Shown: positions 29,095-49,859 of the stretch, piece by piece | Layout of the letters: each line of letters opens with the position of its first letter | Numbering within the stretch: the stretch's first letter is position 1 | NCBI RefSeq assembly: GCF_000568255.1 | Contig: NZ_KK037166.1 | Coordinates: 1,609,881-1,673,880 of the forward strand | DNA from: Kutzneria sp. 744 | GTDB taxonomy: Bacteria > Actinomycetota > Actinomycetes > Mycobacteriales > Pseudonocardiaceae | Reading direction: 5' to 3' | DNA length: 64,000 nt | The notes under the pieces: generated by a model | The model's input: the letters and a program-made list of their open reading frames with translations, nothing else | Database searches by the model: none | What the model was told of the DNA's origin: nothing | Position numbers and translations under genes: made by a program

Positions 29095-29342
29095 ATCGCT
29101 TGAATCGCGCTCACCCTAGCCTCAACTGTACGTGTGTCTGGTTTAAATAGAGCCGCTCTGGCCCTATGCGAACTTCATAACCGGGATCGTAAACCTCACG
29201 GGGACCCCAGGCTATCCTTTGTTGAACCAGTGAGGGTATAGCCCGCGTACGGACAACCCCTCTATGGGGCGATACCCTACCGTCTTGAATCTAATTGCGA
29301 TAAGACTCCTGGCCTAACAACCACCTCACTAATCGAGCCTAA
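29095..29342. other. anomalous near-50% GC segment, random-looking, truncates a gene
   Basis: GC is about 53% by count over 29101-29340, in a neighbourhood near 70%. It has stops in all frames, no inverted ends and no recognisable gene. On its right it cuts the FAD/NAD(P)-binding gene: after the GECVED residues the reading frame abruptly uses TTA, ATT, AGT and AGA codons and ends. It most resembles gap filler or a misassembly; a foreign insertion is less likely. Confidence 0.7.
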
Positions 29343-30816
29343 GTCCTCCACGCACTCGCCCCGCGCCAACAGGGCCCGCACCAGGGGATCGTCGGCACGG
29401 CCGATGCTGGGCGGAGGCAGCCGGGCCTCGATCAGGCAGCGGGCGGTGAGCGTCGCGGCCTCGGTCACCGCCACGAAGCCGTCCGCACGAGGCGTGATCT
29501 CCAGGCCCGGCCCGAGGAAGCGGACGAACCCGGCGCGGGCCAGGGCCAGCATTTTCTTCTGTCCGCCGCCCCGGCGGTCCGCTGGTCAGGAAGCTGGTCA
29601 TGGGCAGGAACCGCTGCTCGATGTCGATCACCCGGGACGCCCCGGCGATGCGCCGCTCGGCCAGCAGCTCGTGCACCACGCCGAGAGCAGAGCCGATGCC
29701 GTTGACGGCCCCGATGAGCGGGCTGCGGTCCCGGTTGTTACGGACATCCAGCACCTCGGCCAGGAACCGCTCGGCGAAGGTGTGGAAATCCCCGCCGTGC
29801 CAACGCAAAGGCTCGAACAGGGCGTCGATGTCGAAGCGGTCGCCCGGTACTGCCTCCTCGATCAGGGCGTCCAGCTCAGCGGAACCCCAGTCGAACTTCT
29901 CGAACCCCGTGACGAAGTCCGCCCACTGGCCTCGGACCCGCTCCGGGTGGGCCAGGAAGAGCTCGTGGTAGTAGCCCCACGCCCCTTCCTTGACGACCAA
30001 CGGCCAGAGATCGGAACCGAAGTCCAAAGCAGCACCCGGCACGGTCTCCCGGTCCAGGAACTTGGGCAGCGGCGCGGGTTCCGCCAGCCGGTACCCGGGC
30101 TTGGCGTGATACGGCAGGCCGCTGCGGGAACCGGCGTACAGCACCGGTTCCCGCCCGCTCGGCTCGTACACCAGCTCCCCGCCGGGAACGCGGTGGAACT
30201 GGCCGCCGCGGCCTTCGGTGAGCAACACCATGTAGTCCACAAAGGTCAGCCCCAGGCCACGGGCGATCACCGGCGCACCGGCGGGGATCGCCGACACATC
30301 GGAGGCATAGCCGCTTGGCACGTAGGTCAGGCCGAAACGTCGAGCATGGTCGAGGTACTCAAGCTCCGCAGAGGAAGGCAGCGGGTCGATGTGCCCCTGG
30401 GCCAGAATCACGGCATCCACGTCAAACGCCACACCGGACGACAAAACAACCCGTCCGTCCACAATGTCCACAACGCGGTCGGTGTGCACGACCAGACGTG
30501 ACACACGAGACGCCGCCTGCTCGAACACCCACGAGAAGTACGCACCCGCCTGCGGCCGCGTGGCGAAGGCCGTCGCCGGCAGCCCGGACCACTCCCCCAG
30601 CGACGGCACGCCCGGCCCGAACATCGCCACCCCGGCGACGGTCGAGTTCATCCACAGCAGCGACGGCTGCCGTTCCCGCCAGATCCGTCCCGGACCCGGC
30701 GGAAAGGGGTCCACCACATGCACTTCGAGATCGAGAGAACCGGCAAGCGCGCCGAGCCGCTCCAGCACCGAGGTGCCGCGCGGCCCGGCGCCCACGATGC
30801 ACACCCGCGCGCTCAT
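29277..30816 (-). pseudogene. FAD/NAD(P)-binding oxidoreductase (PF13454 type), frameshifted and 3'-truncated
   Basis: The product begins with a Rossmann site VCIVGAGPRGTSVLERL and continues through segments typical of the NAD_binding_9 oxidoreductases found in actinobacterial metabolite clusters. A run of four C (29569-29572) carries one base too many: removing it joins FLTSGPPG to GGQKKMLALARAGF and restores one frame. The natural C-terminus is missing; the last 20 or so codons (from about 29342) are low-GC filler. Visible natural part is about 490 residues. The ATG overlaps the stop of the upstream adenylation-dehydrogenase gene (ATGA), so the two are translationally coupled and probably act in one pathway. 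Whether the gene is truly broken depends on the assembly. Confidence 0.8.
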
Positions 30817-33504
30817 GCGCTCGTGGTCAGCTGCCGCCGGTCGGCGCCGATGTAGTCGGCGACGGCCTTGGAGATCAGCAGCGGCTCGGCGACCCGCCTT
30901 CCCTGGTAGGCAACGTAATTGGCGACCATGCCACGGCCGCCGAACGGGGCGTTGCCGTCGTCGGCCTCCAGCAGCGTGGTGTTCAGGCACACCTCGTGCC
31001 GCTTGCGCAGCAGCTTCACCGTCTCCGGCAGGTCCCCGTACACCATCGCGCCCATCGCCCGCTCCTCCAGGAACGGCAGCGTCAGGATGTCGTGCAGGGC
31101 GCGCTGGTCGCCGTACACGACGACGTTGAAGATGGGCGCGAACAGCTCGTCGCAGGTCACCTTGTGCCCCTTGGGCCGCCGCAGCACGGTCGGCTCCAGG
31201 CTCATCCGGGACAGGTCGACGCGGCCGCCGTGCACGATGTGCCGGGCGTTGCGGTGCAGGTACTCCAGGGCGAAGCCGAACGCCTGCTCGTAGAACATCG
31301 GCGAGTAGTCGGCCTTGGGGTCGGACCGCTCCCCCAGCACCAGCTCGTCGATGCGCTTGCCGAGCGTGGCGAAGAAGCGCTCCTCCAGCGACTCGTGCAC
31401 GCACACCAGGTCCGGGCCGAAGCAGTCCTGGCCGGAGTTGAGCAGCCGGATCTCCAGCAGGTCGGTGACGGCCAGGTCGACGTCCGCGCCGGGGCCGACG
31501 ACGAACGGGTTGATGCCCTGGCCGTAGTACACGAACAGCTGATCGGGGCGCAGCTGGGCGCGGATCTTCTCGGCGTTGGAGTACGCCCCGGTGAACACCA
31601 CCACCTCGGAGGCGGCGGTCTCGCCGGTGACGAACTCCTTCTGGGTGCTGGTGGACAGCGTGATCGGCAGCCCGTGCACGGGGGCGAGCAGCTCGTGCAG
31701 GGCGATCAGCTGCCGGCGGATGTGCGCGGACGGCCGGAACACGACCTCCTCGCTGTACAGGGCCGGCACCAGCAGGTACAGCACGTAGCCGAACAGCGGG
31801 ACGTTGGACGGCATGAACACGGCGGTGCGGTTGACCAGCGGCGGCGACCACAGCGCGACCTCGGCGGCGGCGCCCTTGAGGGTGGCCAGCGCGGTGTTCA
31901 GCTCGCCGGCGGCGGTGCGGTAGTTGGACATCTCGGTGAGCACGCCGAGCACCTCGTCGCGGTGCTCCCGCAGGTACTGCTCGACCTTGCGCAGCGCGTC
32001 GACCCGCTCGGCCAGCGGGATCCGGCTCAGGTCGGTGCGCATGCCGTTGATGGCCACCGGGAACACCTCCTCCGGGTCGTCCTTGACCTGGCCCGCGGCC
32101 AGCTCGCGCAACGCCCGCTGATCGACCTTTCCGTTGTGGTTGAGGGGAAAGTTGTGCACGACGAGCACCTGGTTGGGCTGCTCGTGCACGGCCAGGCGCT
32201 CGCCGAACACGCGCCGCCAGTACTTCGGGTCGCGCCCGGACTCGTCGGCGACGACGAACACCAGCTTGCTGCCGCGGCGCTCATGCTCCAGCGCCACCAC
32301 ACGGACCGGCGCGCCGAAAGGCTTCGGCCTTACGTGCCAGGGCTTCCGGGTACAGGGTGTGCCCGTGCCGGTGCACCGCGCCCTTGCGGCCGAGCACGGC
32401 GACGTTGCCGTCCTCGTCGAGGTAGCCGATGTCGTTGGTGTGGTACAGGGTTCGCGTGCTCTCCAGGAACCGGCCGTCCTTGTCGATGGTGCCGACGAGC
32501 AGATCCTCGCTGCGCACCACCAGCTCGCCCACGACACCGGCCGGCACCGGGATGCCCTTGTCGTCGAGGACGTCGACCTCGAAGCCGTCCAGCGGCTTGC
32601 CGCACAGGTTCTCGTCGCCGGGCGCGGCCAGCGCGATGTTGCCGGCCTCGCTGCTGCCGTAGCCGTCCAGCAGCGGCTTGCCGGTGAACTCGCGGAACTT
32701 GGCGATCAGGGTGCTGCCCAGCGGCGCGCCGCCGACGCACCACATGCGCACGTGGGCCAGCTGGTCGGGGGTGACCTGGCGGTGGTCCATGACCCGCAGC
32801 AGCGAGTCGTAGGTCGACGGGGTGGTGTCGACGACGGTGACGCGCATGCTGGTGATGGCCTCGACGGCCCGGTCGAGCCGGGCCCGCGGCACGATCACCA
32901 GGCAGCACCGGCTCTGCCACCACAGCAGGATCAGCGACAGGCCGTACTGGTGCGAGAACGGCAGCATCGGCAGCATGACGTCGTCGTCACGGTAGCCCAT
33001 GCGGCGCGCGGTGGCGTCGATATTGCTGCGCACCGACCGTCCACTGCGGACGATGATGGCCGGCGCGCCGGTGGTGCCGGAGGTGAGCAGCACCAGGGCG
33101 TCCCGGCGGTTCCACCACGCCGAGAAGTCCAGGGCCAGCGGCTCGTCGGTGACGTTGGCGTCGGCCGCCGGCGCCACGTCGGCCATCCTCACGACCCGCA
33201 CCCCCGGCGGCGCGTCGGTGGCGACGGCGTCGCTGCCGAGCATCCACTGCACGGAGCGCAACGCGGGCGCGCGGTCCTCGGCCGACTGGTGCTCGTCCAG
33301 CAGCATGATGGACACGTCGAGATGGATCAGGGTGAGCAGCGCAAGCACGTAATCGGTGGAATTCGCGCCGACGAGGGCGACGCGGTCGCCCGACCGTAAG
33401 CCGGCCGCGACCAGTTTCCTCGCCAGGGCGGCGCACCGGCGGGCCACCGTCTGCGTGGACCAGACCGAACCCTCGCTGACCAGACGCACGTCGACGCTGC
33501 TCAC
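30813..33504 (-). CDS. adenylation domain fused to aldehyde dehydrogenase-fold reductase (one frameshift)
   Basis: An AMP-forming synthetase domain (residues 1 to about 470) fused to an aldehyde-dehydrogenase-fold domain (about 480-896). The first has LLTSGTTGAPAI, GYGSSEAG, the YHTNDIGYLD loop and the terminal NHNGKVD lysine. The second has the catalytic cysteine in NSGQDCF and a DELFAPIF segment. The usual ELGG general-base Glu is replaced (YYGQGINP), as in thioester-type dehydrogenases and reductases, so reduction of an activated acid to an aldehyde is plausible (inference). A run of three A (32317-32319) has one extra base; removing it restores 897 codons. GTG start with GAGGAG seven bases upstream. 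No carrier domain is present. It is divergent from the lanthipeptide operon. Confidence 0.85.
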
Positions 33505-34334
33505 CTGGTGCTCCTCTGCTCGTCGCATGCGAACATCGCACGGTTTCGGTGTTTCCTTGTTTCCTCAACTCGGGAAACACGGCTACGGACCTTTGTGTTC
33601 GACACGATCGACGCTCCCCTTCCAGGCCCGCGCGCCGTGAAGACGGCGCGCGACAACGGATTTGGTGAGCGGATCCCGGCGACTGCCGGGCGAATTCGAG
33701 GTGCTGGCCTGCGACGTGACCACCGTCATGAACGCTACCGGGCCCGGCCACGCGGTTCAAGAATGAAGCTCGGTTCGGCGTGGGAACGCATCCACCCCTG
33801 CCCCCGCGCACCCGTACGGACGTGGGAAGACGTTGCGCCGCACCGCCTACGCGCGAATCAAACGTCGTACGACGGTTGGAACACCGTGAAACACCGATGG
33901 AGTAGTCATTTGAGCGTGGCTCAAAGCCTCATCAGAATCGAACGGGATTTGCGGACCACGTTCGTAAGTGGTGTGCGAGCGTCGTTCGGGAAAGCGTGAC
34001 CGATCCGTCCGGGCAAGGCCGTTGACAGTCGAACGTCCTACCGGTAGTCGTGTAACCAGAGCGGAACGACTGGGGTGCAGTAACTGGGGTAGTGCTGGGG
34101 TGAGCGCGCAGAGGCGCGCCGTGAGCGCACGTTGGTGCGCCCCCCGGTGTGCGGCAGATGCGACTGCCGTCTTTCACGCCGTTCGCCACTGGGCGGGCCG
34201 AGGGTTCTCCTCGTGTGCCCGCGAATCAGGCATGCGGCCGTTTCACACCACACACACTCACGCTGTGGCGCGCCCTGGCGCGCCCACAGCCCGTTTCCCA
34301 TGGGCCGGAGCGGTCCGGAGGGAGCACACACACC
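33505..34334. promoter_or_regulatory. 830-bp divergent control region of the lanthipeptide locus
   Basis: No convincing gene is present. It holds an 8-bp inverted repeat GTGTTTCC/GGAAACAC (33549-33556, 33573-33580), a 9-bp hairpin GCGCGCCGT/ACGGCGCGC (33630-33651), a 17-bp palindrome TTTGAGCGTGGCTCAAA (33909-33925), and three CTGGGGT copies at 34070, 34084 and 34095. These are candidate regulator sites and an untranslated-leader hairpin for the two divergent operons. Confidence 0.55.
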
Positions 34335-34979
34335 ATGAAAGGCGCGATCTGTGCGCTGCGCTGGCCGGAGTCCGACGACTACGACCGGATCGCGGCGTGG
34401 CTGCGGCCGATGTCGCACGCCGCGGCCCTGACCGGCGACACCCACGAGGCGATCGACGCGGCCGCGCTGCGGCAGGCCGCCGAGAGCGGGCAGGTGCGGT
34501 ACTTCGTTGTCGTGTCAAGGGACGGCGAGCCGGTGGGCGTGGTCAACTACCGGGCCGCGGGCGGCGGCGGGGCCCACTCGTACGCGATGGGCGGCGCGGT
34601 CGGCATCTCCGAGAGGTGGCAGGCCGGCTACGGCGCCGAGGCGCTGAGCCTGCTCACCGATTTTGTGTTCCACCAGCTCAACGCCCACCGGGTGGAGTTC
34701 TCGACGGCCAGCTACAACCGGCATTCACTGCAGGTGCTGACCAGGGACGGCTTCACGTTGGAGGGTGTGCTGCGCGACTACTACTTCGTCGACGGCGAGT
34801 ACCACCACCGCACGATCTGGTCGATCCTGCGGCACGAGTACTACGCCAACCGGGCCGAGTACGGGCGCCGGCTGCCGATGCCCGAGCTCGTCCCGGCCGA
34901 GGACAAGGCCAGGGCCCGGGAGTCGCTGGCCAAGTACCTCGCCAACGACGGGCCCTCGTCCTGGGGAGAGATGCGATGA
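34335..34979 (+). CDS. GNAT-family N-acyltransferase in lanthipeptide operon
   Basis: A 214-residue RimJ/RimL-like GNAT protein. It has the acyl-CoA-binding core around VGISERWQAGYGAEALSLLTDFVF and the later ASYNRHSLQVLTRDGFTLEGVLRDYYF segment. ATG follows GGAGGGAG. The stop overlaps the LanKC start by 4 bases, so acylation and lanthionine formation are coupled. In goadvionin and selidamide biosynthesis GNAT enzymes transfer fatty acyl groups to RiPPs; acylation of the lanthipeptide N-terminus (or of a side chain) is the leading inference here. A resistance or tRNA-modification role cannot be excluded. Confidence 0.85.
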   Translation: MKGAICALRWPESDDYDRIAAWLRPMSHAAALTGDTHEAIDAAALRQAAESGQVRYFVVVSRDGEPVGVVNYRAAGGGGAHSYAMGGAVGISERWQAGYGAEALSLLTDFVFHQLNAHRVEFSTASYNRHSLQVLTRDGFTLEGVLRDYYFVDGEYHHRTIWSILRHEYYANRAEYGRRLPMPELVPAEDKARARESLAKYLANDGPSSWGEMR

Positions 34980-37570
34980 AACCGGCAATAGAGCTGTATT
35001 CGCTGGCCGACCGGGTGTTCTTCGAGGATCCGATGCGCTGGCACGCCGAGCAGACCTTCGAGCTGGCCACCGGTGACGTGCCGGCCGGCTGGCGGCGCAG
35101 CGGCGCGGGGCCGTGGGTCATGCTGCGGCCGGACGGCCTGGTCCTTCCCAAGCAGGGCTGGAAGATTCACGTGTCGGCCGTGCCGTCGAACGCGCTGGAG
35201 GTGCTCAAGGCCGTCGCGGGCTACCTGGTCGAACACGGCGTGGCCTTCAAGTTCCTACGCGGCCGGGCGTTGCTGCACGCGTACAGCATGAAGTACGCGC
35301 CACGGGCGGCGAGCGGCAAGCTCGTCACCATCTACCCCGTCGACGAGGCCGAACTGGAGCGGGTGCTGGTCGGCTTGGACGAGCTCGTCGGCGGCGCGGA
35401 CGGCCCGTACGTGCTGAGCGACCTGCGTTTCCACGACGGGCCCCTGTACGTGCGCTACGGCGGCTTCGACAAGCGCTACTGCGTGACCGAGGACGGCGAG
35501 CGTGAGCTGGCGATCGAACGGCCGGACGGCACGCTGGTGCCGGACGAGCGTCGCCCGGTGTTCACCGTGCCGGAGTGGGTCCAGCTGCCGGCTTTCCTTC
35601 AGCCGCATCACGACAAGGTGAAGTCCGGTGGGCAGCTCGATTACGACGTGACCGAGGCGCTGCACTTCTCCAACGGCGGCGGCGTGTACGTGGCCAAGCG
35701 GCGCACCGACGGGCACGAGGTCGTCATCAAGGAGGCACGGCCGCACGCCGGACTGTCCGGTGATGAGCAGGATGCGGTCACGAGGCTGGCTCAGGAGGAG
35801 TGGGCGCTACGCCAATTGGCGGGTGTGCAAGGGATTCCGGCGCTGCACGAGGTCGTCCAGGTGTGGGAGCACCGGTTCCTGGTGATGGACCGGGTGCCCG
35901 GGCAGGCCCTGCAGCACTGGATGGCCAACCAGTTCCCGTTGGTGGGCGTGTCTTCCACGCCCGAGCAGCGCCGGGCCTACGCCGAGCGGGCGATCAAGCT
36001 GCACGACCGGATCACCGAGCTGGTGGCGCGGGTGCACGAGCGCGGCGTGGTGTTCGCGGACCTGCACCCGGCCAACATCATGGTCGACGACAACGACGAG
36101 CCCGGCCTCGTCGACTTCGAAAGCGCGTTCCCGGCGAGCGAACAGCGCCGCCAGCTGGCCGGCCACGCGGGTTTCGTGTCACGTGAGGTGTCGGGCGTCG
36201 ACGTGGACCGCCAGGCGTTGACCGTGTTGCGGCTGTGGATGTTCATGCCGCTGACCAGCGTGCTGGCGTTGGCGCCGGCCAAGCTCGGTGAGCTGATGAG
36301 CGAAGCGGAACAGCTGTTCGAGCTGCCGCCGGAGTTCACCAAGCCGGTGCACGAGCTGTCGGATCGCCGCGCCGTGAACCAGGTTCCGGCCCCGGTGTCC
36401 GCCCCGTCCGCGCGCTGGGGCGAAGCCGGGTGGTCCGCGGCCGTCGAATCGCTGGCGGCGGCGATCGCCGCCAGCGCCACGCCCGACCGTGAGGATCGCC
36501 TCTTTCCCGGTGACATCGAGGGTTTCATCTCCACCGACGGCGCCAGCTTCGCGCACGGCGCCGCCGGCGTGCTGTGGGCGCTGTCGTCAGCGGGGCTGCC
36601 GACCGAACGCAAACACCGGGAATGGTTGCTGCACAAGGCATCCGTGCCGGTGGAGCGGCCAGGCTTCTTCGACGGCGTACACGGCGTGGCCCACGTGCTC
36701 GACCATCTCGGCTATCGGGCGGAAGCGGCGGGTCTGGTGGTCCGGGCGGCCGACCTGGTGGCCGAGACGACCGACCTGACGCTGTTCAGCGGGTTGGCCG
36801 GCATCGGGCTGAATCTGCTGCACCTGCACGACAAACGGCCCGGCGCCGGGCATCTCGCCCGAGCGCTGGAGCTGGGTCTCCGGGTCGGCGACGCGTTGGA
36901 GAGCGGTCAACCCTGCGGCATCGACCGGCCGCCCGGTCGGCTGGGGCGGGTCCGCGACTCCGGCACCAACGGGGGCCTGCTGCGGGGCTGGTCCGGGCCA
37001 GCGCTGTTCCTGTTGCGGCTGTACGAGGCGACCCAGGATCGCGTCTGGCTCGATCAGGCGGTCCGGGCCGTGCACCGCGACCTGGACCTGTGCGTGGCCG
37101 ACGAACAGGACGGCACGCTCCAGGTGGACGGCGGCTTCCGCCGGCTCCCGTACCTGGAGATCGGCTCCGCCGGTATCGCGCTGGTGGGCGACATGGTGTC
37201 CCGACACACCGCCGACGAGCGCGTCCTGGCCGCTCTGGGTCCGCTTTCGCGCGCCTGCGAGAGCATGTTCGTAATGGACGCGCAGCTTTTCAACGGCCGC
37301 GCTGGATTGCTCGCGATTCTCTCTGGACTTTCCCGCTCGGGGCATGCTAGTCTCATTTCAGAGCGAATCGGACAGGACCTAGAATCCAGCGCTGAGGATC
37401 ACCTCGCGAAGCTCCGGTGGCATCTGCTCGAATATCATGGACATGCCTCTTTTCCCGGTGACGGATCGTCCCGCTTGTCCATGGACTTCTCGACCGGCAA
37501 CGCCGGAATCATCGCAGCCATAAACTCGACGATTCGACCTGGCGTGCCGTTCATGCCCTTCGCACAGTGA
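34976..37570 (+). CDS. lanKC: class III lanthipeptide synthetase LanKC
   Basis: An 864-residue three-domain synthetase: N-terminal phospho-Ser/Thr lyase domain (about 1-200), central kinase (about 220-460) and C-terminal LanC-like cyclase (about 520-864). The kinase has VVIKEARP with the ATP lysine, VFADLHPANIMV (catalytic loop) and LVDFES in place of DFG. The cyclase lacks the Cys-Cys-His zinc ligands, as is normal for class III, and ends with DFSTGNAGI. Length and layout match RamC/AmfT/LabKC. It phosphorylates Ser in the precursor, eliminates phosphate to dehydroalanine and cyclises to labionin or lanthionine. Four precursor genes follow directly. Confidence 0.95.
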   Translation: MKPAIELYSLADRVFFEDPMRWHAEQTFELATGDVPAGWRRSGAGPWVMLRPDGLVLPKQGWKIHVSAVPSNALEVLKAVAGYLVEHGVAFKFLRGRALLHAYSMKYAPRAASGKLVTIYPVDEAELERVLVGLDELVGGADGPYVLSDLRFHDGPLYVRYGGFDKRYCVTEDGERELAIERPDGTLVPDERRPVFTVPEWVQLPAFLQPHHDKVKSGGQLDYDVTEALHFSNGGGVYVAKRRTDGHEVVIKEARPHAGLSGDEQDAVTRLAQEEWALRQLAGVQGIPALHEVVQVWEHRFLVMDRVPGQALQHWMANQFPLVGVSSTPEQRRAYAERAIKLHDRITELVARVHERGVVFADLHPANIMVDDNDEPGLVDFESAFPASEQRRQLAGHAGFVSREVSGVDVDRQALTVLRLWMFMPLTSVLALAPAKLGELMSEAEQLFELPPEFTKPVHELSDRRAVNQVPAPVSAPSARWGEAGWSAAVESLAAAIAASATPDREDRLFPGDIEGFISTDGASFAHGAAGVLWALSSAGLPTERKHREWLLHKASVPVERPGFFDGVHGVAHVLDHLGYRAEAAGLVVRAADLVAETTDLTLFSGLAGIGLNLLHLHDKRPGAGHLARALELGLRVGDALESGQPCGIDRPPGRLGRVRDSGTNGGLLRGWSGPALFLLRLYEATQDRVWLDQAVRAVHRDLDLCVADEQDGTLQVDGGFRRLPYLEIGSAGIALVGDMVSRHTADERVLAALGPLSRACESMFVMDAQLFNGRAGLLAILSGLSRSGHASLISERIGQDLESSAEDHLAKLRWHLLEYHGHASFPGDGSSRLSMDFSTGNAGIIAAINSTIRPGVPFMPFAQ

Positions 37571-37653
37571 TTTCTTCCGATATCAACGCGAGGGCTCTTC
37601 TACGACCCGGCTCAGCCCCGGGGAATGTCATACGCGAACGGAGGTGATCACCC

Positions 37654-37734
37654 ATGATCCTGGACCTTCAGACCCTGGAGACGTCCGCCGCCGAGACCCG
37701 CCTGCCGGGCTCGACCGTCAGCGGTGGCTGCTGA
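37654..37734 (+). CDS. lanA1: class III lanthipeptide precursor A1
   Basis: A 26-residue precursor. The leader has the ILDLQTLE motif recognised by class III synthetases. The C-terminal part is LPGSTVSGGC, where STVSGGC fits the SxxSxxC rule for labionin or avionin rings, and Cys is the last residue. The ribosome-binding site GGAGGTGATC is a near-perfect 16S complement seven bases before the ATG. It lies 83 bases after LanKC. Confidence 0.93.
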   Translation: MILDLQTLETSAAETRLPGSTVSGGC

Positions 37735-37791
37735 GAAATCAGCGCCTGTAGCCCACTTTCCGAACTAGTCTTCGAAGCGAGGTGACCACCA

Positions 37792-37872
37792 ATGATCCTG
37801 GACCTTCAGACCCTGGAGACGTCCGCCGCCGAGACCCGCCTGCCGGGCTCGACCGTGAGCGGTGGCTGCTGA
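37792..37872 (+). CDS. lanA2: class III lanthipeptide precursor A2
   Basis: Encodes the same 26-residue peptide as A1; the DNA differs only at a synonymous valine codon (GTG for GTC). It has its own GAGGTGACC ribosome-binding site and a 57-base spacer after A1. Confidence 0.93.
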   Translation: MILDLQTLETSAAETRLPGSTVSGGC

Positions 37873-37925
37873 AAAGCGCCCGAAGTCATTCTTTTCGCAC
37901 TAGCGCACGAAGCGAGGTGACACTC

Positions 37926-38006
37926 ATGATCCTGGACCTTCAGACCCTGGAGACCTCCGCCGCCGAGACCCGCCTGCCGGGCTCGACCGTCAGCGGTGGC
38001 TGCTGA
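37926..38006 (+). CDS. lanA3: class III lanthipeptide precursor A3
   Basis: Third copy of the identical 26-residue peptide, with one synonymous change in a threonine codon (ACC for ACG). Ribosome-binding site GAGGTGACA; 53-base spacer after A2. Confidence 0.93.
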   Translation: MILDLQTLETSAAETRLPGSTVSGGC

Positions 38007-38059
38007 ACCAGATTCACCCTTGTTGTCAGACGGAATTCTTCAGCACAAAGGAGCACACC

Positions 38060-38149
38060 ATGATCCTGGACCTGCAGAACATGGAGACCGCGGCCGTCGA
38101 GTCCCGCCTCCCGGGCAGCACGGTGAGTGCCACCTGCTTCAACGCCTGA
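38060..38149 (+). CDS. lanA4: class III lanthipeptide precursor A4 (variant)
   Basis: A 29-residue diverged paralogue: leader ILDLQNMET and core STVSATC followed by Phe-Asn-Ala. It keeps the SxxSxxC ring motif but its Cys is no longer C-terminal, so it cannot undergo the C-terminal Cys decarboxylation possible for A1-A3. Ribosome-binding site AAAGGAG. Confidence 0.92.
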   Translation: MILDLQNMETAAVESRLPGSTVSATCFNA

Positions 38150-38169
38150 TGCGTTAAGCGATAGTCGGT

Positions 38170-38199
38170 CGGTGCGGGCGGCGTGCAACGCCCGCACCG
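38170..38199 (+). terminator. hairpin after the precursor array
   Basis: A 10-bp inverted repeat GGTGCGGGCG/CGCCCGCACC with an 8-base loop lies 21 bases after lanA4 and before the exporter gene. It can act as a terminator, or as an attenuator that keeps precursor mRNA in excess over the downstream genes. Confidence 0.75.
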
Positions 38200-38244
38200 G
38201 CCATTTATTGTCTCCGGCGAGACCGAAAGGCGGGTGAGAACACG

Positions 38245-39531
38245 ATGGCGGCACCTGTGAAAGCGCTCGACGCGACGCCGGCCCGGGTCGGATATCCGAT
38301 CATGCTGCTCGCGTTCGGCACCAGCATGGTCGGCGTCGGAATCGGCTCCTACGGCCTTCCTCTTTTCGTTCTCACCACCACCGGAAGCGCGACGCTGACC
38401 GGCTGGATCGCCGCCGCCGCGCTCGTCGGCTCCCTGCTCACCGGTGGCCTGATGGGGCCGCTGATCGACCGGGTCGGCATGCGCCGGGCCTGGATCTTCT
38501 CGCTCGCCGGCGGCTCGACCACCGCGGCGCTGACGGTCGCCCTGTTCGCGGCCGGGCTGCTGCCGCCGTGGCTGCTGGTCTCGCTCTCGTTCGTGCGCAG
38601 CTGCGTGGAGTCACCCGGCCGGGTCGCCATCTTCGGCATGATCCCGGCCGTCGCCGAAGCCTCGGGCCGCAACCTGGCCCGCGCCAACGGCACCGTGCGC
38701 GCCATGAACGGGGTGTCCAACCTGGCCAGCCCGATCGCCGCCGGCATTATCGCCGCGGTGCTGGGCAGCGTCTTCACCATCCTGGCCGACGCTGTCTGCG
38801 CGCTGCTCGCCCTGACCGTGGCGCTGGTGTTCCTGCGCCGGCCGACGATGACCACCATCGACGAGGTCAACGCCACCCGACCCCGCCGTCGCTCGTACCA
38901 GCGCGAGTTCCGGGAGGCCATCCGGTACTTCTGGTCCGACCGCCTGTTACGCACGCTGATCTGCTTCACCGTCTTCTTCGCCGCACTGGACGCGGCCATC
39001 GCCAACATCGGCCTCACCCTGTACGCGCAGCAGGTGTTGGGCTCCGTGACCTGGTACGGGGTGCTGGTCAGCTGCTTCGGCCTCGGGTCGCTGGCCGGCA
39101 CCGTCGGCTACAGCGTCTTCGGGCACAGAGCCCCGCCGCGCGGCCTGTACCTGAGCGCCTATCTGGGGTTCGCCCTGGTGGTGCTGCTGCTGTCGGTGAA
39201 CGACCACACGGCCGTCGCGCTCGGCTTGATGGTGGTGGCCGGCGTGCTCACCAGCCCGATCGACCTGCTCTACCTGGCCGCGCTGCAGGAACGCGTGCCG
39301 GAGCGGATGTTCGGCCGGGTCACCAGCGTCGCGACGACCGTCATCTCCGGTCCCGGACCGGTCGCCGTGGCGCTGGTGACCTGGCTGATCACCGGCGTCG
39401 GCGCGCACGCCGCCTTCGCCCTCATCGGCGGCTGCTACCTGGTGGTGGCGGTGTCGCTGCTGTTCGTCCGGTCCCTGCACCAGCTCCGTCCGCCCAAGCC
39501 CGTCACCACAACCGCGGAGGTGTCGTCATGA
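38245..39531 (+). CDS. MFS transporter, probable lanthipeptide exporter
   Basis: A 428-residue major facilitator with about 12 hydrophobic helices, of the drug/macrolide exporter (DHA3-like) type. The loop GPLIDRVGMRRAW between helices 2 and 3 is the MFS signature. It follows the precursor genes on the same strand and its stop overlaps the ATG of the next gene. Class III loci often encode ABC exporters instead; an MFS here fits a very small product. Export or self-protection is inferred from position. Confidence 0.88.
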   Translation: MAAPVKALDATPARVGYPIMLLAFGTSMVGVGIGSYGLPLFVLTTTGSATLTGWIAAAALVGSLLTGGLMGPLIDRVGMRRAWIFSLAGGSTTAALTVALFAAGLLPPWLLVSLSFVRSCVESPGRVAIFGMIPAVAEASGRNLARANGTVRAMNGVSNLASPIAAGIIAAVLGSVFTILADAVCALLALTVALVFLRRPTMTTIDEVNATRPRRRSYQREFREAIRYFWSDRLLRTLICFTVFFAALDAAIANIGLTLYAQQVLGSVTWYGVLVSCFGLGSLAGTVGYSVFGHRAPPRGLYLSAYLGFALVVLLLSVNDHTAVALGLMVVAGVLTSPIDLLYLAALQERVPERMFGRVTSVATTVISGPGPVAVALVTWLITGVGAHAAFALIGGCYLVVAVSLLFVRSLHQLRPPKPVTTTAEVSS

Positions 39532-40391
39532 GCAGCCCGGAACTGGACTTCGACCTGACGCTGGCCGGCCGGAACGCCACGTGGGCGTTCACCCCGGCCG
39601 GTGTGCAGGTCAACTACTCGGCCAGCAAGGGAGTGCCGAGACTGCTGCGCCGGATCGGGCAGCGGCTGGTGCCGTTCGAGGCGATCACCTCGGCCACCGT
39701 GCACGACGACGACGGGCTGCCGTCGCTGGCCCTGTCCCTGCGGCCGGGCTCCGACCCGTACACCGAGGTCGCGGCCGGGCAGCTGCCCGAGGACTACGCG
39801 CTCTACCGGCTGGAGCTGGACCAGCACCAGGCCGAACACGCCTTGCGGTACAAGGACACGATCAACGACCGGTGCGCGCTGACCGACGAGCCGGCGCCGC
39901 GCTTCCTGCTCGACACGGACACGGCTCCGTTGCGGCTGCGCGGTTTCGACGGTGTCGCCACGTTCGACGGCGACTCGGTGCGGTTGTCCTGGGGCATGAA
40001 GGCCAGCCTGGCCAAGCAGGCCGGCGGCGACCAGGTGTACCGGATCGGCGAGCTGGCCGCCGTGGAGTGGTCGCTGCCCGGGTTCGTGCGGGGCCACCTG
40101 CGGCTGCGGCCGGTCGGTGTGCTGCGGCCGCAGATGGACGTGATCGACGACCCGCACACCCTGCTGTTCGGGCTCGGCTACGGCGCCGTCGCGGAGTCCC
40201 TGCCCTTCGCGGCGGCGCTGACGGCCGCCATCGGCAACGGCAGCGGCCCGATCGGGGACCTGACCTCGGCCGGCGTCCGCGCCGAGCAGGTCGCGGCGGC
40301 CATCCGCACGCTGGGCGGGCTGATGGCCGACGGCCTGCTCAGCCGCGAGGAGTTCGAAGCCAAGAAGAAGCACCTGCTGGACCAGATCTGA
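39528..40391 (+). CDS. DUF4429 domain protein with C-terminal SHOCT-like segment
   Basis: A 287-residue cytosolic protein with two DUF4429-like repeats (residues about 5-120 and 135-225), each a PH-like beta fold in known members, and a C-terminal LGGLMADGLLSREEFEAKKKHLL segment typical of the SHOCT oligomerisation motif. No enzymatic motif is visible. The ATG overlaps the MFS stop, so it belongs to the operon; its role in the pathway is unknown. Confidence 0.8.
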   Translation: MSSPELDFDLTLAGRNATWAFTPAGVQVNYSASKGVPRLLRRIGQRLVPFEAITSATVHDDDGLPSLALSLRPGSDPYTEVAAGQLPEDYALYRLELDQHQAEHALRYKDTINDRCALTDEPAPRFLLDTDTAPLRLRGFDGVATFDGDSVRLSWGMKASLAKQAGGDQVYRIGELAAVEWSLPGFVRGHLRLRPVGVLRPQMDVIDDPHTLLFGLGYGAVAESLPFAAALTAAIGNGSGPIGDLTSAGVRAEQVAAAIRTLGGLMADGLLSREEFEAKKKHLLDQI

Positions 40392-40402
40392 GGGGCACGC
40401 TG

Positions 40403-42061
40403 ATGATCACCTATCCCGGCTGCTGGCACGCCACCGTCGACTACCTGGAAACCGCCGGCGTGGAGACGGTGTTCGGCCTGCCCAGCGACGACCTGGGCTA
40501 CCTGGCCGCCGTCGACGGCTCCAAGCTGACTTCGGTGTTGTGCCGGGACCAGCGCAACGCCGTGTTCATGGCCACCGGCCACGCCATGGCGTCCGGCCGA
40601 CCCGGCGTTGTCGTGGTGGGCAAGGGACCGGCCGTCACGAACACGCTGACCGGCTTGCTGGAGGCCAGGTTCTCCGCCGTCCCGGTGGTCGTCCTCGCTA
40701 CCGGGACGTCGTCGGAGCACCGGGGCTCCGGGGCCTTTCAGGAGCTCGACCAGCTGGCGGTGCTGGCCCCGCTGACCAAGTGGGCGACCCGGGTGGATCA
40801 CCCGTCACGGGTGGTGGCCGCCCTGGAGCGGGCATTCGACGTTGCGGCGAGCGGGGTTCCGGGGCCGGTGTACGTCGAGTTCCCGGACGACCTGCGGGAG
40901 ACGGAGATCGTGCGCACCCGGCCCTGGGCCGCGCCGATCGAGCGCACGGTTTCGGTTGCCGGCGCCGACAGTGCTGCCGTGCAGGCGATTCAGCTGGCGC
41001 GTAGGCCGTTGATCCTGGTCGGCGGCGGCATGCGGCACCGGAACTCGGGGCGACTGCTGGAGAAGCTGGCCGAGAAGACCGGCGCGGCGGTGCTGGCGAC
41101 GGCGTCCGGGCGTGGCTCGTTCGACGAGGAGCATCCGCAGTTCCTTGGCCTGGCCGGATTGTACGCGCGGCCGGCGGTGTCGGAGCTGGTGCGCGACGCC
41201 GATCTGGTGATCACCCTGGGCAGCCGGCTGGAGGAGACCGCTCGCTACGGCTGGCGGCACGACCAGCAGACCGTGCAGGTCAACATCGACGCCGCCGAGT
41301 TCAGCACGGAGTTCGCCGGGCCGCGAGTGCTGGGCGACGGCGGCGATGTCGTGCGGTCGTGGCTGGGGTTGGTCGGCGAGCCCGACCCCCAGTGGCTCAA
41401 GCGGGTCACCGGCGCTCGACGGTCGCTTGTGGACGATGCCGCGACTGAGCTGGCCCGACTGCGGGCCACGCCCCGGCTCCAGATCGCCGAGGTGCTGGCC
41501 GCCTTGCAGGACGCGCTGCGGCCGGACGCGATCCTCGTGCAGGAGAACGGTTTGCAGGACATGTGGTCCTACATCTTCCCGTACTTCCGGTGCGGCGGCT
41601 CGATCGTGCCGTCCGAGCAGACCAGCCTCGGCTTCGGCGCGGCGGCGGCCGGCGGCGTGCGGCTGGCCCACCCGGACCGCCAGGTGGTCGCCTTCGTCGG
41701 CGACGGCGCGTTCACCATGGTCATGTCCGATGTGGACACCCTGGTGGAGAACGGTATCGGCGTGTTGTTCGTGGTGCTGGACAACGGCGGCTACGGCTGG
41801 CTGCAGACGCAGCTGGAGCAGCGCGGGCTGACCGAGTTCTCGTTCACCCGGGCCCGGACCGCGCCGACCCGGCATCCCCACGTGCACGCCATCACGCTCA
41901 CCGAGCGGGGCCACCTGCGCGAGCAGCTGACCGACGCGCTGGCCGCGACCGAGCACGGCACGGTCGCCATCGCGCGGGTGCCGGTCGAGCTGGACGACGC
42001 GCCGCCCGGGATTTCACAGCTGGAGGGGGACTTCCCGACACTGAAAGAGGAAAGGTCGTGA
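40403..42061 (+). CDS. thiamine-diphosphate-dependent enzyme (acetolactate synthase-like)
   Basis: A 552-residue member of the acetolactate synthase/benzoylformate decarboxylase superfamily, with the pyrimidine-binding domain (about 1-165), central domain (about 180-310) and pyrophosphate-binding domain (about 350-520). GDGAF followed by VLDNGGYG forms the cofactor-binding motif. The N-terminal part has GVETVFGLPSDD. Substrate cannot be told from sequence. Decarboxylation or carboligation of a 2-oxo acid could make an unusual acyl or aldehyde unit for the locus (inference). A ribosome-binding site is weak; it lies 11 bases after DUF4429. Confidence 0.87.
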   Translation: MITYPGCWHATVDYLETAGVETVFGLPSDDLGYLAAVDGSKLTSVLCRDQRNAVFMATGHAMASGRPGVVVVGKGPAVTNTLTGLLEARFSAVPVVVLATGTSSEHRGSGAFQELDQLAVLAPLTKWATRVDHPSRVVAALERAFDVAASGVPGPVYVEFPDDLRETEIVRTRPWAAPIERTVSVAGADSAAVQAIQLARRPLILVGGGMRHRNSGRLLEKLAEKTGAAVLATASGRGSFDEEHPQFLGLAGLYARPAVSELVRDADLVITLGSRLEETARYGWRHDQQTVQVNIDAAEFSTEFAGPRVLGDGGDVVRSWLGLVGEPDPQWLKRVTGARRSLVDDAATELARLRATPRLQIAEVLAALQDALRPDAILVQENGLQDMWSYIFPYFRCGGSIVPSEQTSLGFGAAAAGGVRLAHPDRQVVAFVGDGAFTMVMSDVDTLVENGIGVLFVVLDNGGYGWLQTQLEQRGLTEFSFTRARTAPTRHPHVHAITLTERGHLREQLTDALAATEHGTVAIARVPVELDDAPPGISQLEGDFPTLKEERS

Positions 42062-42065
42062 CGAG

Positions 42066-43319
42066 ATGGGCACTGCAGGAGCGCCGCGCCGGATCGTGAT
42101 CACCGGCTGGGGCGCGGTCACCCCGCTTGGCCTGACGGTGGAGGAGACGTGGTCGGCGATGCTGCGCGGGTGCAGCGGCATCGCCGAGCTGACCACTGTG
42201 GACACCACGGGCCTCACGGTGCGGATCGGCGGTGAGGTGCGGGGCTTCAACCCCGAGGACTACATGCCGCGGACGGTGAGCCGCCGGCTGGACTCGTTCG
42301 CCCAGTACGCGGTCGGGGCCGCGCAGCAGGCCGTCGAGCACGCCAAGTTCACCATCGGGCCGGACGAGGCCGACCGGGTCGGCGTGCTGATCGGCAGCGG
42401 CTACGGCGCGGCCAACTACAACCAGCAGGTCGCCCACGTCGTGCGGGATCGCAGTCCCCGCGCGGTGAGCCCGTTCTCGCAGGTCACCGGGGCGATCGAC
42501 AGCGCCGTCGGCGAGGTCACGATGCGCATCGGGGCCCAGGGTCCGAGCCGGGCCCAGTCCACCGCCTGCGCCACCGGCACCGACTCCATCGGCGAGGCCG
42601 CCCGCTGGATCCGTTACGGCATAGCGGATGTCGTCGTCGCCGGCGGGGCCGAGAGCTGCCTCAACCGCGCCGATCTGGCCGGTAGCGCCAATGCCCGCGC
42701 GCTCTCCACCCGTAACGACGACCCGACGCGGGCCTCCCGCCCCTTCGACGCCGCCCGCGACGGCTTCGTGATGAGCTCCGGGGCCGGGGTGCTGGTGTTG
42801 GAGGAACTGGAACACGCCCTTCGCCGCGGCGTGCCCATCCTGGCCGAGGTCAGCGGTTATGGGTCCACTTCGGACGCTTACCACCTCACCGCCCCGCATC
42901 CCGAGGCGATCGGCGCCCGCAAGGCCATGCGCCTGGCGCTGGAGGACGCCGGCGTCGATTCGTCCGATGTGGACTACATCAACGCCCACGGCACCAGCAC
43001 TCCCATCGGCGACGAGCGTGAGGTCTACGCCATCCGATCTGTGCTGGGGGCTCGCGCCAGTGCCGTGCCCGTGAGTTCGACGAAGTCGATGACCGGCCAC
43101 ATGCTCGGGGCCGGCGGTGCGGTCGAGGCCATCGTGTGCGCCCTGGCCATGCGGGACAGCGTCGTGCCGCCCACGGTGAACCTCGACGACCCTCTGGACG
43201 CCGAGATGAACTTCGTGCCCAATGTGGCACAGGAGCACGAGGTTCGGGTCGCCGTCAGCAACTCCTTCGGCTTCGGCGGGCACAACGCAGTGCTGGTTTT
43301 GTCGGCCTGGGAGCACTGA
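42066..43319 (+). CDS. beta-ketoacyl-ACP synthase II (FabF/KasA-like)
   Basis: A 417-residue condensing enzyme with an intact catalytic triad: Cys in STACATGTDS, His in NAHGTSTP and His in KSMTGHMLGAGG. The C-terminal NSFGFGGHNA is the family end motif. It extends acyl-ACP chains with malonyl-ACP. No acyl carrier protein or malonyltransferase gene is present nearby, so housekeeping partners would be needed. The ATG is four bases after the previous stop, and the enoyl reductase ATG overlaps its stop. It probably helps build an acyl chain for the lanthipeptide; a resistant duplicate target enzyme is an alternative. Confidence 0.92.
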   Translation: MGTAGAPRRIVITGWGAVTPLGLTVEETWSAMLRGCSGIAELTTVDTTGLTVRIGGEVRGFNPEDYMPRTVSRRLDSFAQYAVGAAQQAVEHAKFTIGPDEADRVGVLIGSGYGAANYNQQVAHVVRDRSPRAVSPFSQVTGAIDSAVGEVTMRIGAQGPSRAQSTACATGTDSIGEAARWIRYGIADVVVAGGAESCLNRADLAGSANARALSTRNDDPTRASRPFDAARDGFVMSSGAGVLVLEELEHALRRGVPILAEVSGYGSTSDAYHLTAPHPEAIGARKAMRLALEDAGVDSSDVDYINAHGTSTPIGDEREVYAIRSVLGARASAVPVSSTKSMTGHMLGAGGAVEAIVCALAMRDSVVPPTVNLDDPLDAEMNFVPNVAQEHEVRVAVSNSFGFGGHNAVLVLSAWEH

Positions 43320-44074
43320 TGCTGCTCACCGGCAAGCGGCTCGTGATCACCGGGGTCATCACCGAGTCGTCCATCGCGTTCCACACCGCCCGGGTCGCCC
43401 AGTCGCAGGGGGCCGAGGTCCTGCTCACCGGCTTCGGCCGGCTGTCCCTGGTCCGCCGGCTGGCCGACCGTCTGCCCAAGCCCGCGCCGGTCGTCGAGCT
43501 GGACGTGACATCCGCCTCGGACCTGGCGTCGCTGTCCGAGCGGGTCGCCGAGCACATGCCGGCCGTGGACGGGGTCGTGCACTCCATCGCCAACGCCCCC
43601 GCCTCGTGCTTCGGCGACTTCATGGCCACGCCGTGGGAGGACGTCGCCTCGGCCGTGCACGTGTCGGCCTTTTCCTTCAAGGCCTTGGCCGGTGCCGTTG
43701 CCCCGCTCTTGACGCCCGGGGCTTCGTTGGTGGGCCTCGACTACGACGCCCGTGTGGCGTGGCCCGACTACGACTGGATGGGCGTGGCCAAGGCTGCGCT
43801 GGAGTCCGTCACCCGTTACGTGGCAAGGGAACTCGGCCCGCATGGGGTCCGGGCCAACCTCGTCGCGGCCGGGCCGTTGCGCACGATGGCCGCCCGGTCC
43901 ATCCCCGGCTTCGCCGACATCGGCGAGACGTGGAACGCCCGGGCTCCCCTGGGCTGGGACGCCGACAACGCCGAGCCGGTGGCCCGCACGGTCTGCGCCC
44001 TCCTGTCCGACTGGCTCCCGGCCACAACAGGCTCGATCGTCTACGCCGACGGCGGCGTGCACATCATCGGCTGA
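43319..44074 (+). CDS. InhA/FabI-like enoyl-ACP reductase
   Basis: A 251-residue SDR closely resembling mycobacterial InhA: GKRLVITGVITESSIAFHTARVAQ near the N-terminus, VHSIANAP, and the late VCALLSDWLPATTGSIVYADGG. The active site YDWMGVAKAALE keeps the Tyr-(x6)-Lys spacing of FabI enzymes. It reduces enoyl-ACP with NADH. It overlaps the ketosynthase stop (TGATG) and ends the operon before a strong terminator. A dedicated copy beside a ketosynthase suggests acyl-chain building; a resistance duplicate is possible. Confidence 0.92.
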   Translation: MLLTGKRLVITGVITESSIAFHTARVAQSQGAEVLLTGFGRLSLVRRLADRLPKPAPVVELDVTSASDLASLSERVAEHMPAVDGVVHSIANAPASCFGDFMATPWEDVASAVHVSAFSFKALAGAVAPLLTPGASLVGLDYDARVAWPDYDWMGVAKAALESVTRYVARELGPHGVRANLVAAGPLRTMAARSIPGFADIGETWNARAPLGWDADNAEPVARTVCALLSDWLPATTGSIVYADGGVHIIG

Positions 44075-45015: not shown

Positions 45016-45660
45016 TCAGCGCAGGGCGATCGCCGTCACTACGAAACCGTCCCGCACCAGGTAGCGGCCCTCGAAGCCGGTCAACGGCACCCCACAGACC
45101 AGGGGTGGCTCGACCCGCAGCTCGACCGAGAACCGGTTCTCGTCCGGGTGGAAGGTCAGGCGCGCGTCGCCAAAACCGAGCCATCGCTCGGTCAGCGGGA
45201 ACCACGCCTTGTACACGCTCTCCTTGGCGCTGAACAGGATGCGGCCCCAGAACAGATCGCCGGGCAGCGCGGCCAGCATCTCCCGCTCCTCGGGCAAGGT
45301 GACAACGCCGAGAACGCCGTCGGGCAGCTCGTCGTGGATCTCGGCGTCGATGCCGACGGTCAGCATCTCGTCGGCCCGGGCGACGGCGGCGGCGTAGTAG
45401 CCCCGGGTGTGGGTGATGCTGCCGACGATGCCGGCCGGCCACAGCGGCTGCCGCTTGGGGCCGCGCAGGATCGGCACCTCGGGCACACCGAGCTTGCCCA
45501 GGGCCCGCCGGGCGCAGGTGCGCGCGATGGTGAACTCCCGGACCCGCTTCTCCACGGCCCGGGCGACGTCCGGCTCCTCCTCGGGCAGCAGCCGGGCGTC
45601 GGGGTCGTCGCCGAGCACGTCGGCCGACACGACCTCGGCGGGCAGCAGGTCCTCGATCAC
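45016..45660 (-). CDS. Sfp/EntD-type 4'-phosphopantetheinyl transferase
   Basis: A protein of about 214 residues that attaches phosphopantetheine to carrier proteins. It shows VGIDAEIHDELP (magnesium site), FSAKESVYKAWFP (catalytic segment) and the EntD-like REFTIARTCARRAL and VGSITHTRGYYAAAV regions. The GTG at 45660 fits the family N-terminus (VIEDLLPAEVV); an upstream ATG at 45711 gives a 17-residue extension without a better ribosome-binding site. It can activate the five PCP domains of the siderophore NRPS; whether it is dedicated to that role is unknown. Confidence 0.93.
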   Translation of the reverse strand: MIEDLLPAEVVSADVLGDDPDARLLPEEEPDVARAVEKRVREFTIARTCARRALGKLGVPEVPILRGPKRQPLWPAGIVGSITHTRGYYAAAVARADEMLTVGIDAEIHDELPDGVLGVVTLPEEREMLAALPGDLFWGRILFSAKESVYKAWFPLTERWLGFGDARLTFHPDENRFSVELRVEPPLVCGVPLTGFEGRYLVRDGFVVTAIALR

Positions 45661-45815
45661 TGCACGGACGTTACCGGTCCGGCCGGGGACGCCCCGCACC
45701 TCGACGACCATGTCGAAGCCGGGCGAGCACCGGCTACGGCGAACGGACCTAGCGCGACGGTCGAACGGTCCCGCATGATCTGCACGGCTGCCACCACCTT
45801 CACTGGAGCAGCCCT

Positions 45816-48934: not shown

Positions 48935-49124
48935 CCGTTCGACCAGCCGGTAGTGCCCGCCGATCAGCTGCCCCGTGTCGATGACCGATTACTCCTCGTG
49001 AACACCCTCACCCGCACGTCCCTCGATGGGTCACACAATAGCGACCTTGTATTACTACGGGCAGTAGGTGTTGGCCACACCTGACCCGGGTCCACTATGG
49101 ACGTGCGACGGTACGTTGACCAGC

Positions 49125-49859
49125 ATGAGGACAGCAATTGTGACCGGCGCGGGCGCCGGCATCGGGGCGGCCACGGCGGTGGCCCTGCTGGACGCCGGCT
49201 ACCACGTGGCGCTGGCCGGGCGGCGCGAGCAGACGCTGCGGGAGACCGCCGGCGACCGGGAGAACGCCCTGGTCGTGCCGTGTGACGTGGCGGTCGAGGA
49301 ACAGGTCGAGGCCCTGTTCGAGACCGTGGAGAGCACGTGGGGCCGGCTCGACCTTCTGGTCAACAATGCCGGCACGAACGGCCGGGCCGCGCCCGTCGAG
49401 GACATGTCGGCCGAGATGTGGTCGAAGGTGATCGGCACCAACCTCACCGGTTCCTTCCTCTGCGCCCGTGCCGCCTTCCGGGTGATGAAGCGCCAGCGGC
49501 CGCGTGGCGGCCGGATCATCAACAACGGCTCGCTGTCCGCGCACGTGCCGAGGCCCAACTCGGTGGCCTACACCGCGAGCAAGCACGCCGTGACCGGACT
49601 GACCCGCGTGCTGTCGCTGGAGGGCCGCCAGCACGACATCGCGTGCGGCCAGATCGACGTCGGCAACGCCGAGACGGCGATGACCGCCCGAATGGCCGAC
49701 GGTGCGCCCCAGGCGGACGGCTCCATTCGCCCGGAACCGCGTATGGACGTCTCCGCGGTGTCCGACGCGGTGCTCTACATGGCGGGCCTACCCTTGAGCG
49801 CCAATGTGCAGTTCATGACCGTCATGGCCACATCGATGCCATTCATCGGGCGCGGCTGA
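49125..49859 (+). CDS. short-chain dehydrogenase/reductase
   Basis: A 244-residue classical SDR with cofactor site [12 protein letters not shown], catalytic Ser in NGSLS and Tyr-Lys in YTASK. An Arg-Arg after the second beta strand (AGRRE) suggests NADP preference. It stands alone, divergent from the kinase. Substrate is unknown. Confidence 0.9.

Follow-up and report, generated by a model that had tools for sequence, protein, structure and literature searches.

Known lipidated peptides and the Kutzneria locus

Solabiomycins are anti-tuberculosis compounds. Solabiomycins A and B, from Streptomyces lydicus, are fatty-acylated ribosomally synthesised and post-translationally modified peptides (RiPPs), printed in a 2026 review (PMC13192320) as 13-guanidinotridecanoyl, G, bridged G, dehydrobutyrine, I or V, bridged A, G, G and bridged A. 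If the bridged residues derive from Ser, Ser and Cys and the dehydrobutyrine from Thr, the cores can be deduced to be GSTISGGC and GSTVSGGC. The lipid of the fusaricidins is the omega-guanidino acid 15-guanidino-3-hydroxypentadecanoic acid, and deletion of each of fusB to fusG in Paenibacillus polymyxa abolished both antifungal activity and the fusaricidin peaks (PMC6829208). The lipolanthines (microvionin, nocavionin and nocaviogua) depend on a class III synthetase, nocaviogua having the eight-residue core A-S-V-S-S-N-G-C and an N-terminal C13 guanidino acyl chain. In the goadvionins a peptide is joined to an acyl chain by the acyltransferase GdvG, with the difference that this chain is a polyketide, and the lipoavitides (Ren 2024) are RiPPs acylated at the N-terminus by a non-modular fatty-acid synthase (FAS). 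Here we compare with these systems a locus at 29277-44074 of a 64,000-nucleotide stretch (the window) of Kutzneria sp. 744 (contig NZ_KK037166.1, positions 1,609,881 to 1,673,880), in which a lanthionine synthetase (LanKC) and a GNAT N-acyltransferase stand beside fatty-acid enzymes.

The locus probably (at a probability of roughly 0.7, judged from sequence comparison) encodes a solabiomycin-like, omega-polar fatty-acylated labionin peptide, its lipid being made by a cassette of the fusaricidin type. An earlier note on this DNA had proposed a lipidated lanthipeptide whose locus joins RiPP genes to those of fatty-acid enzymes, which is well supported by the gene content, by LanKC relatives carrying the same cassette and by the clades of the ketosynthase (KS) and enoyl reductase (ER). 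The note had also suggested that the type of locus might be undescribed. This is probably not the case, in view of the deduced solabiomycin B core, the similar enzyme sets in Streptomyces loci with that core and the fusG-F-E-D-C-B gene order. One lipid-making cassette would connect the fusaricidins, made by nonribosomal peptide synthetase (NRPS), with the ribosomal solabiomycins, and the 14 named LanKC loci described below are candidate producers.

LanKC, acyltransferase and precursor peptides

Matches to Pfam and NCBIfam families confirmed the GNAT-LanKC locus as a plus-strand operon running from GNAT to ER, with two divergent genes. The GNAT gene (34335-34979, plus strand; Acetyltransf_3, 2.3e-14) and the LanKC gene (34976-37570, plus strand) overlap by an ATGA, in agreement with the translational coupling described earlier. 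LanKC is of class III, scoring 955 bits with NF038151 (cut-off 575) and 377 bits with the class IV model (cut-off 650).

Downstream of LanKC, on the plus strand, four precursor genes sit in a four-copy direct repeat of 103 nt (64-100% identity); the earlier note had not described them. Precursors 1 (37654-37734), 2 (37792-37872) and 3 (37926-38006) encode the same 26-aa peptide, MILDLQTLETSAAETRLPGSTVSGGC, ending GSTVSGGC, and precursor 4 (38060-38149) encodes a 29-aa variant, MILDLQNMETAAVESRLPGSTVSATCFNA, with a three-residue tail beyond the Cys. All four have the features of class III precursors, an LDLQ leader motif (LxLQ) and an S-x2-S-x(2-5)-C core (STVSGGC or STVSATC). A lanthipeptide survey (PMC7268733) excluded open reading frames (ORFs) of less than 30 aa, and its method would therefore have discarded the window precursors; precursors below a published 30-aa floor are a new aspect. 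At the cassette LanKC loci examined, two to four precursors were present, ending S-x-x-S-x-x-C and mostly 27 aa long (range mostly 26-29 aa; the shortest start was taken, hence a few of 24-25 aa), whereas four ordinary LanKC loci had precursors of 45-48 aa with two motifs instead of one.

The core G-S-T-[VI]-S-G-G-C is present in three of the four window precursors and is that deduced for solabiomycin B. A related GNAT was found in 14 of 392 Streptomyces genomes, and the 12 new ones were fetched. Seven of these loci (L203-L209; labels of this form are our own) contain GNAT, LanKC, KS, a thiamine diphosphate (ThDP, TPP) enzyme, an aldehyde dehydrogenase (ALDH) and a flavoprotein, as well as three precursors whose cores read GST[VI]S[GT]GC, and the window shares with them these genes and the labionin-type motif. 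The Streptomyces stretches L203-L216 were equated with the published sol cluster solely by core sequence. Two of the sol-like loci, when extended, also showed ER, an adenylation (A) gene, a dehydratase-query match and an ORF resembling acyl carrier protein (ACP), the latter called by motif and not by family search. The other five (L210-L214) contain GNAT, A, KS, ER and other precursors, with only short matches to the ALDH query, no match to the TPP enzyme, and LanKC in four of them (L213 lies at a contig edge). An arginase-family gene was seen inside the LanKC/ER/A/GNAT loci L210 (3571-4596) and L211.

In a LanKC tree the window protein falls in a clade made up of 12 of the 16 cassette LanKCs (support 0.93); three Streptomyces cassette LanKCs stand as a separate clade and the seven sol-like LanKCs as another. 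The window thus differs from the sol-like loci in its LanKC clade, and A and ALDH, separate genes in the two extended sol-like loci, are fused in the relatives of the window clade. The window also differs in having a predicted MFS exporter (38245-39531, plus strand; MFS_1, 7.8e-29), found in 10 of the 14 LanKC loci, and a DUF4429/SHOCT protein (39528-40391, plus strand, by domain match), which the earlier note had not mentioned and which occurs in 7 of the 14; no ACP or dehydratase was found there with the queries used.

The C-terminal S-x2-S-x2-C, which is the pattern of nocaviogua with its C13 guanidino acyl, would also suit a lipolanthine proper, whose avionin ring arises by oxidative decarboxylation of the C-terminal Cys, and one of the seven sol-like loci, L209, has an HFCD-like ORF in its flank. 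Avionin, however, requires the decarboxylase MicD, and a search of the window and of 24 further pieces from cassette LanKC loci gave no HFCD Cys decarboxylase (PF02441). The three controls of this search belonged to the alignment of the model itself; the same model did detect the HFCDs at L209 and at L214, a locus which also has a type I polyketide synthase (PKS). PF02441 matches in the own genome, at 2.30, 3.83 and 10.95 Mb, are distant from the locus at 1.64 Mb. No PKS gene was found at the window locus either, and the earlier remark that it has no PKS and no ACP is right for the queries used. Membership of the lipolanthines was rejected for want of a clustered decarboxylase and is very unlikely; since no HFCD lies near the locus, a labionin is expected and not an avionin.

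The fusaricidin-type lipid cassette

Five enzymes of the fusaricidin-type set (ER, acyl ligase, ALDH, KS and an acetolactate-synthase-like enzyme) occur together in the window, with the A-ALDH frameshifted. In a comparison with the fus-like genes of a Paenibacillus locus (L071) five of six were matched, with identities of 37% (ER), 36% (A), 41% (ALDH), 45% (TPP enzyme) and 51% (KS); for a homologue of the FusB dehydratase, FabA and MaoC queries gave no window match at E 0.01. L071 has its genes in the P. polymyxa order fusG-F-E-D-C-B-A, and its counterparts of fusF (1461 bp), fusE (1224 bp) and fusB (408 bp) do not differ from these in length. The Paenibacillus loci share the order ER-A-ALDH-TPP-KS, to which L071 and L077 add a FabA-like gene, and at L071 the cassette is followed by an NRPS opening with a condensation domain. 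The fusaricidin system differs from the window locus in its NRPS-made peptide, in its dehydratase FusB and in that no GNAT or LanKC is among the eight genes listed in PMC6829208.

On the plus strand of the window, the cassette comprises the FusD-type, acetolactate-synthase-like ThDP enzyme (40403-42061, by family match), the FusC-type KS (42066-43319; FabF-type, TIGR03150 above cut-off) and the FusG-type ER (43316-44074; InhA/FabI-type, NF005908 above and the InhA model below cut-off). The latter two close the operon as had been stated in the earlier note. On the minus strand lie the FusF-type adenylation domain (32281-33528; AMP-binding, 4.1e-51), which forms the 5' part of the A-ALDH, and, in a shifted frame, the C-terminus of the A domain with the FusE-type ALDH (30813-32318; PF00171 Aldedh, 3.8e-26; Cys motif NSGQDC present). 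An FAD-NAD(P)-binding flavoprotein (PF13454) is found at 29277-30816 of the same strand.

In a KS tree all 14 actinobacterial cassette rows (from loci of 13 genomes, Amycolatopsis coloradensis standing twice) group together with a support of 0.96, apart from the KSs of their hosts; the next best KS of the window genome is 41% identical to the cassette KS. In an ER tree the ERs of seven LanKC loci group (0.93) apart from housekeeping InhA, and the ER of S. lucensis, from a cassette without LanKC, falls elsewhere; cassette labels in the trees were assigned by us from coordinates. The KS and ER clades track the locus and not the host, and therefore count against a recent target duplication for resistance. 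Instead of serving biosynthesis, the KS and ER might confer self-resistance as duplicates of fatty-acid synthase targets, as could be thought from the InhA-like ER (67% identical to the other InhA of the genome) and the FabF-like KS. This explanation is also at odds with the requirement of their homologues fusC and fusG for fusaricidin activity (PMC6829208), and we regard it as very unlikely. An acyloin or hydroxyketone lipid, for which the A-ALDH would reduce an acid to the aldehyde and the TPP enzyme would condense the aldehyde with pyruvate, would agree with the acetolactate-synthase-like nature of that enzyme and with the outline of the A-ALDH fusion, which appears to resemble a carboxylate reductase. 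The homologous cassette, however, goes with 15-guanidino-3-hydroxypentadecanoic acid (PMC6829208), and solabiomycin has a 13-guanidinotridecanoyl chain (PMC13192320), which makes this chemistry improbable. The acyloin-forming and self-resistance readings had been considered first, and both were given up once the trees and the match to the fusaricidin genes were at hand.

The association of the cassette with LanKC was followed in other genomes. In a LanKC search of 397 genomes of the order, 87 matched at E 1e-100, that of the window among them, and the surroundings were examined for nine others. The four closest LanKCs (57-58% identity), from Prauserella alba, P. salsuginis, genome G364 and Saccharopolyspora flava, all stand at loci with GNAT, LanKC, MFS, TPP enzyme, KS, ER and A-ALDH; none of these loci was reduced to GNAT, LanKC and precursors, the arrangement named in the earlier note as speaking against its proposal. 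The Nakamurella aerolata locus (48%) has the same set, and the four ordinary LanKC loci examined (48%) had no match to GNAT, A-ALDH or KS. With the ALDH part as the query, 9 of 298 genomes (own included) matched at E 1e-40. Among six of these neighbourhoods that were fetched, LanKC is present in three; the other three contain A-ALDH, TPP enzyme and KS (weak, at 30%, in one), with no LanKC in the fetched stretch.

A scan with the A-ALDH alignment gave 58 named loci, among them L086 (26% identity), which was kept out of the clustering, and S. flava, whose genome is counted both here (L039) and in the LanKC search (G312). ALDH was found in 57 of the 58, the TPP enzyme in 50, KS in 43, ER in 29, GNAT in 19 and LanKC in 14. 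The 14 LanKC loci were gathered through A-ALDH, so that the sampling itself ensures A and ALDH at each of them; their cut flanks contained GNAT in 13, the TPP enzyme in 10, KS in 9 and ER in 6. Longer stretches added KS at L029, L030, L061, L031 and L032 and ER at the first four of these, giving KS at 14 and ER at 10 of the 14 loci. In 10 of the 14 loci an R2-like diiron-type protein is encoded between the A-ALDH and GNAT genes (for example at 17312-18247 of L019 and 1-951 of L026).

Other cassette neighbourhoods showed further combinations of genes. Loci of Fictibacillus, Rossellomorea and Brevibacillus (L078, L079, L081, L069 and L083) have a related GNAT, a VinK-like acyltransferase, separate A and ALDH genes and a TPP enzyme, with no LanKC match. 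Scans of L078 and L079 showed a GHMP kinase, PALP, an ATP-grasp ligase, a beta-eliminating lyase, a KS III and an ACP, and the product of such Firmicutes loci is possibly a lipid-amino-acid or a dipeptide. Near the cassette at L052, positions 18057-19163 encode a FAS1/MaoC-type dehydratase region fused to a YqcI/YcgG domain.

ThDP enzyme, proposed pathway and state of the window copy

The catalytic Glu of ThDP enzymes activates the cofactor, and glyoxylate carboligase has Val in its place. In an alignment of 46 ThDP enzymes, confined to loci with a TPP match of more than 200 bits, this position is Gln ([RK]DQ[RS]) in all 46, window included, and the GDG motif is kept. Twelve further stretches agree on Gln; seven are the sol-like loci, and two of the other five come from genomes already among the 46. 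The replacement of the catalytic Glu by Gln throughout a TPP-enzyme family is a new aspect, and this enzyme makes the start of omega-guanidino fatty acids testable with one protein. BbmA and CsmA are close solved TPP-enzyme structures to the window enzyme.

Tails of C13 and C15, if extended by two-carbon units, need an odd-carbon starter. A C5 unit from the one-carbon-longer 2-oxo acid would fit, as would a one-carbon extension of a C4 aldehyde. Tentatively, and with less than even confidence by a clear margin, these ThDP enzymes may be a distinct carboligase family, with Glu always replaced by Gln, whose one-carbon chemistry, and not plain decarboxylation of a 2-oxo acid, supplies omega-guanidino fatty acids with their odd-carbon starter. 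The module may have been fitted to NRPS, LanKC/GNAT and Firmicutes ATP-grasp systems, the window clade standing separate with its fused A-ALDH and with R2-like and VinK-type proteins in its relatives that maybe give a differently oxidised tail.

For a solabiomycin-like product, LanKC would bind the LDLQ leader and turn the core G-S-T-V-S-G-G-C into a labionin-type ring through S-x2-S-x2-C. The adenylation, ALDH, ThDP, FabF-type KS and InhA-type ER proteins would assemble a polar-ended fatty acyl chain, most likely an omega-guanidino one, for which the primary FAS may lend ACP, ketoreductase and dehydratase. In the least certain step, the ThDP enzyme and ALDH would make or process an odd-carbon starter aldehyde or acid, which the A domain would then activate. 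After removal of the leader, the GNAT is predicted to acylate the N-terminal Gly with this chain, and export of the product would fall to the MFS protein. The short branched acyl of the lipoavitides is reportedly made by a KS III; a start of that type was not found, the window KS being of the FabF type and one KS III query giving no match in the window.

Several observations weigh against the solabiomycin-like reading. The table in PMC13192320 has a bridged G at residue 2, which is read here as Ser-derived. Decarboxylated 2-oxo-arginine has four carbons, an even number, and is a misfit with C13 and C15 chains. The LanKC of one cassette locus, L047, clusters with ordinary LanKCs, and the sole candidate precursor there is a different one of 34 aa. 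In three Crossiella loci, of which two were extended, no TPP enzyme was seen in the vicinity of LanKC (nor was one found at L057, where the contig ends). With the queries used, the window has no ACP or dehydratase. The R2-like gene of the relatives had no match in the whole window genome in a search without a positive control, and their VinK gene had only a 33% match elsewhere in that genome and none at the locus. The A-ALDH match switches frame between 32320 and 32315, and that of the flavoprotein does so between 29920 and 29558, covering 30807-29920 in one frame and 29558-29349 in a different one, and ends early.

The divergent A-ALDH fusion and FAD enzyme of the earlier note hold as far as orientation and families (AMP-binding with PF00171, and PF13454) are concerned; in the window the former is not a single open frame, and the latter changes frame and stops early, being apparently truncated at its C-terminus. 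Six close relatives encode the A-ALDH in a single open frame, 896-982 codons long (an internal TGA being marked in one of them), and two weak matches (33-34%) have 399 and 446 codons. If the frameshifts are real, acyl activation would be blocked, as would the function of the flavoprotein, perhaps sulfoxidation; it is a tentative candidate for the counterpart of SolS, which sulfoxidises the labionin of solabiomycin. The window copy may thus belong to a decaying, inactive cluster, which is compatible with a solabiomycin-like reading of the family and to which we give slightly less than even odds. The frameshifts in two genes of a stretch of about 4 kb and the missing R2-like and VinK genes point to decay, and an intact upstream ORF of 3924 codons (11.8 kb) makes a high rate of indel errors less likely. 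Against decay, the other genes of the locus are open, and as the one-contig genome has a completeness of 95.19%, an assembly error behind the frameshifts is possible.

The genes around the locus were also inspected. A PptT-like 4'-phosphopantetheinyl transferase is encoded just 3' of it (45016-45711), with a gene for a luciferase-like oxidoreductase in between, and an SDR protein (PF00106) 5 kb downstream (49068-49859). Upstream lies a separate NRPS cluster (2343-27285) with MbtH, FecCD transporters, a periplasmic binding protein and a Lys/Orn N-monooxygenase, which looks like a siderophore cluster.

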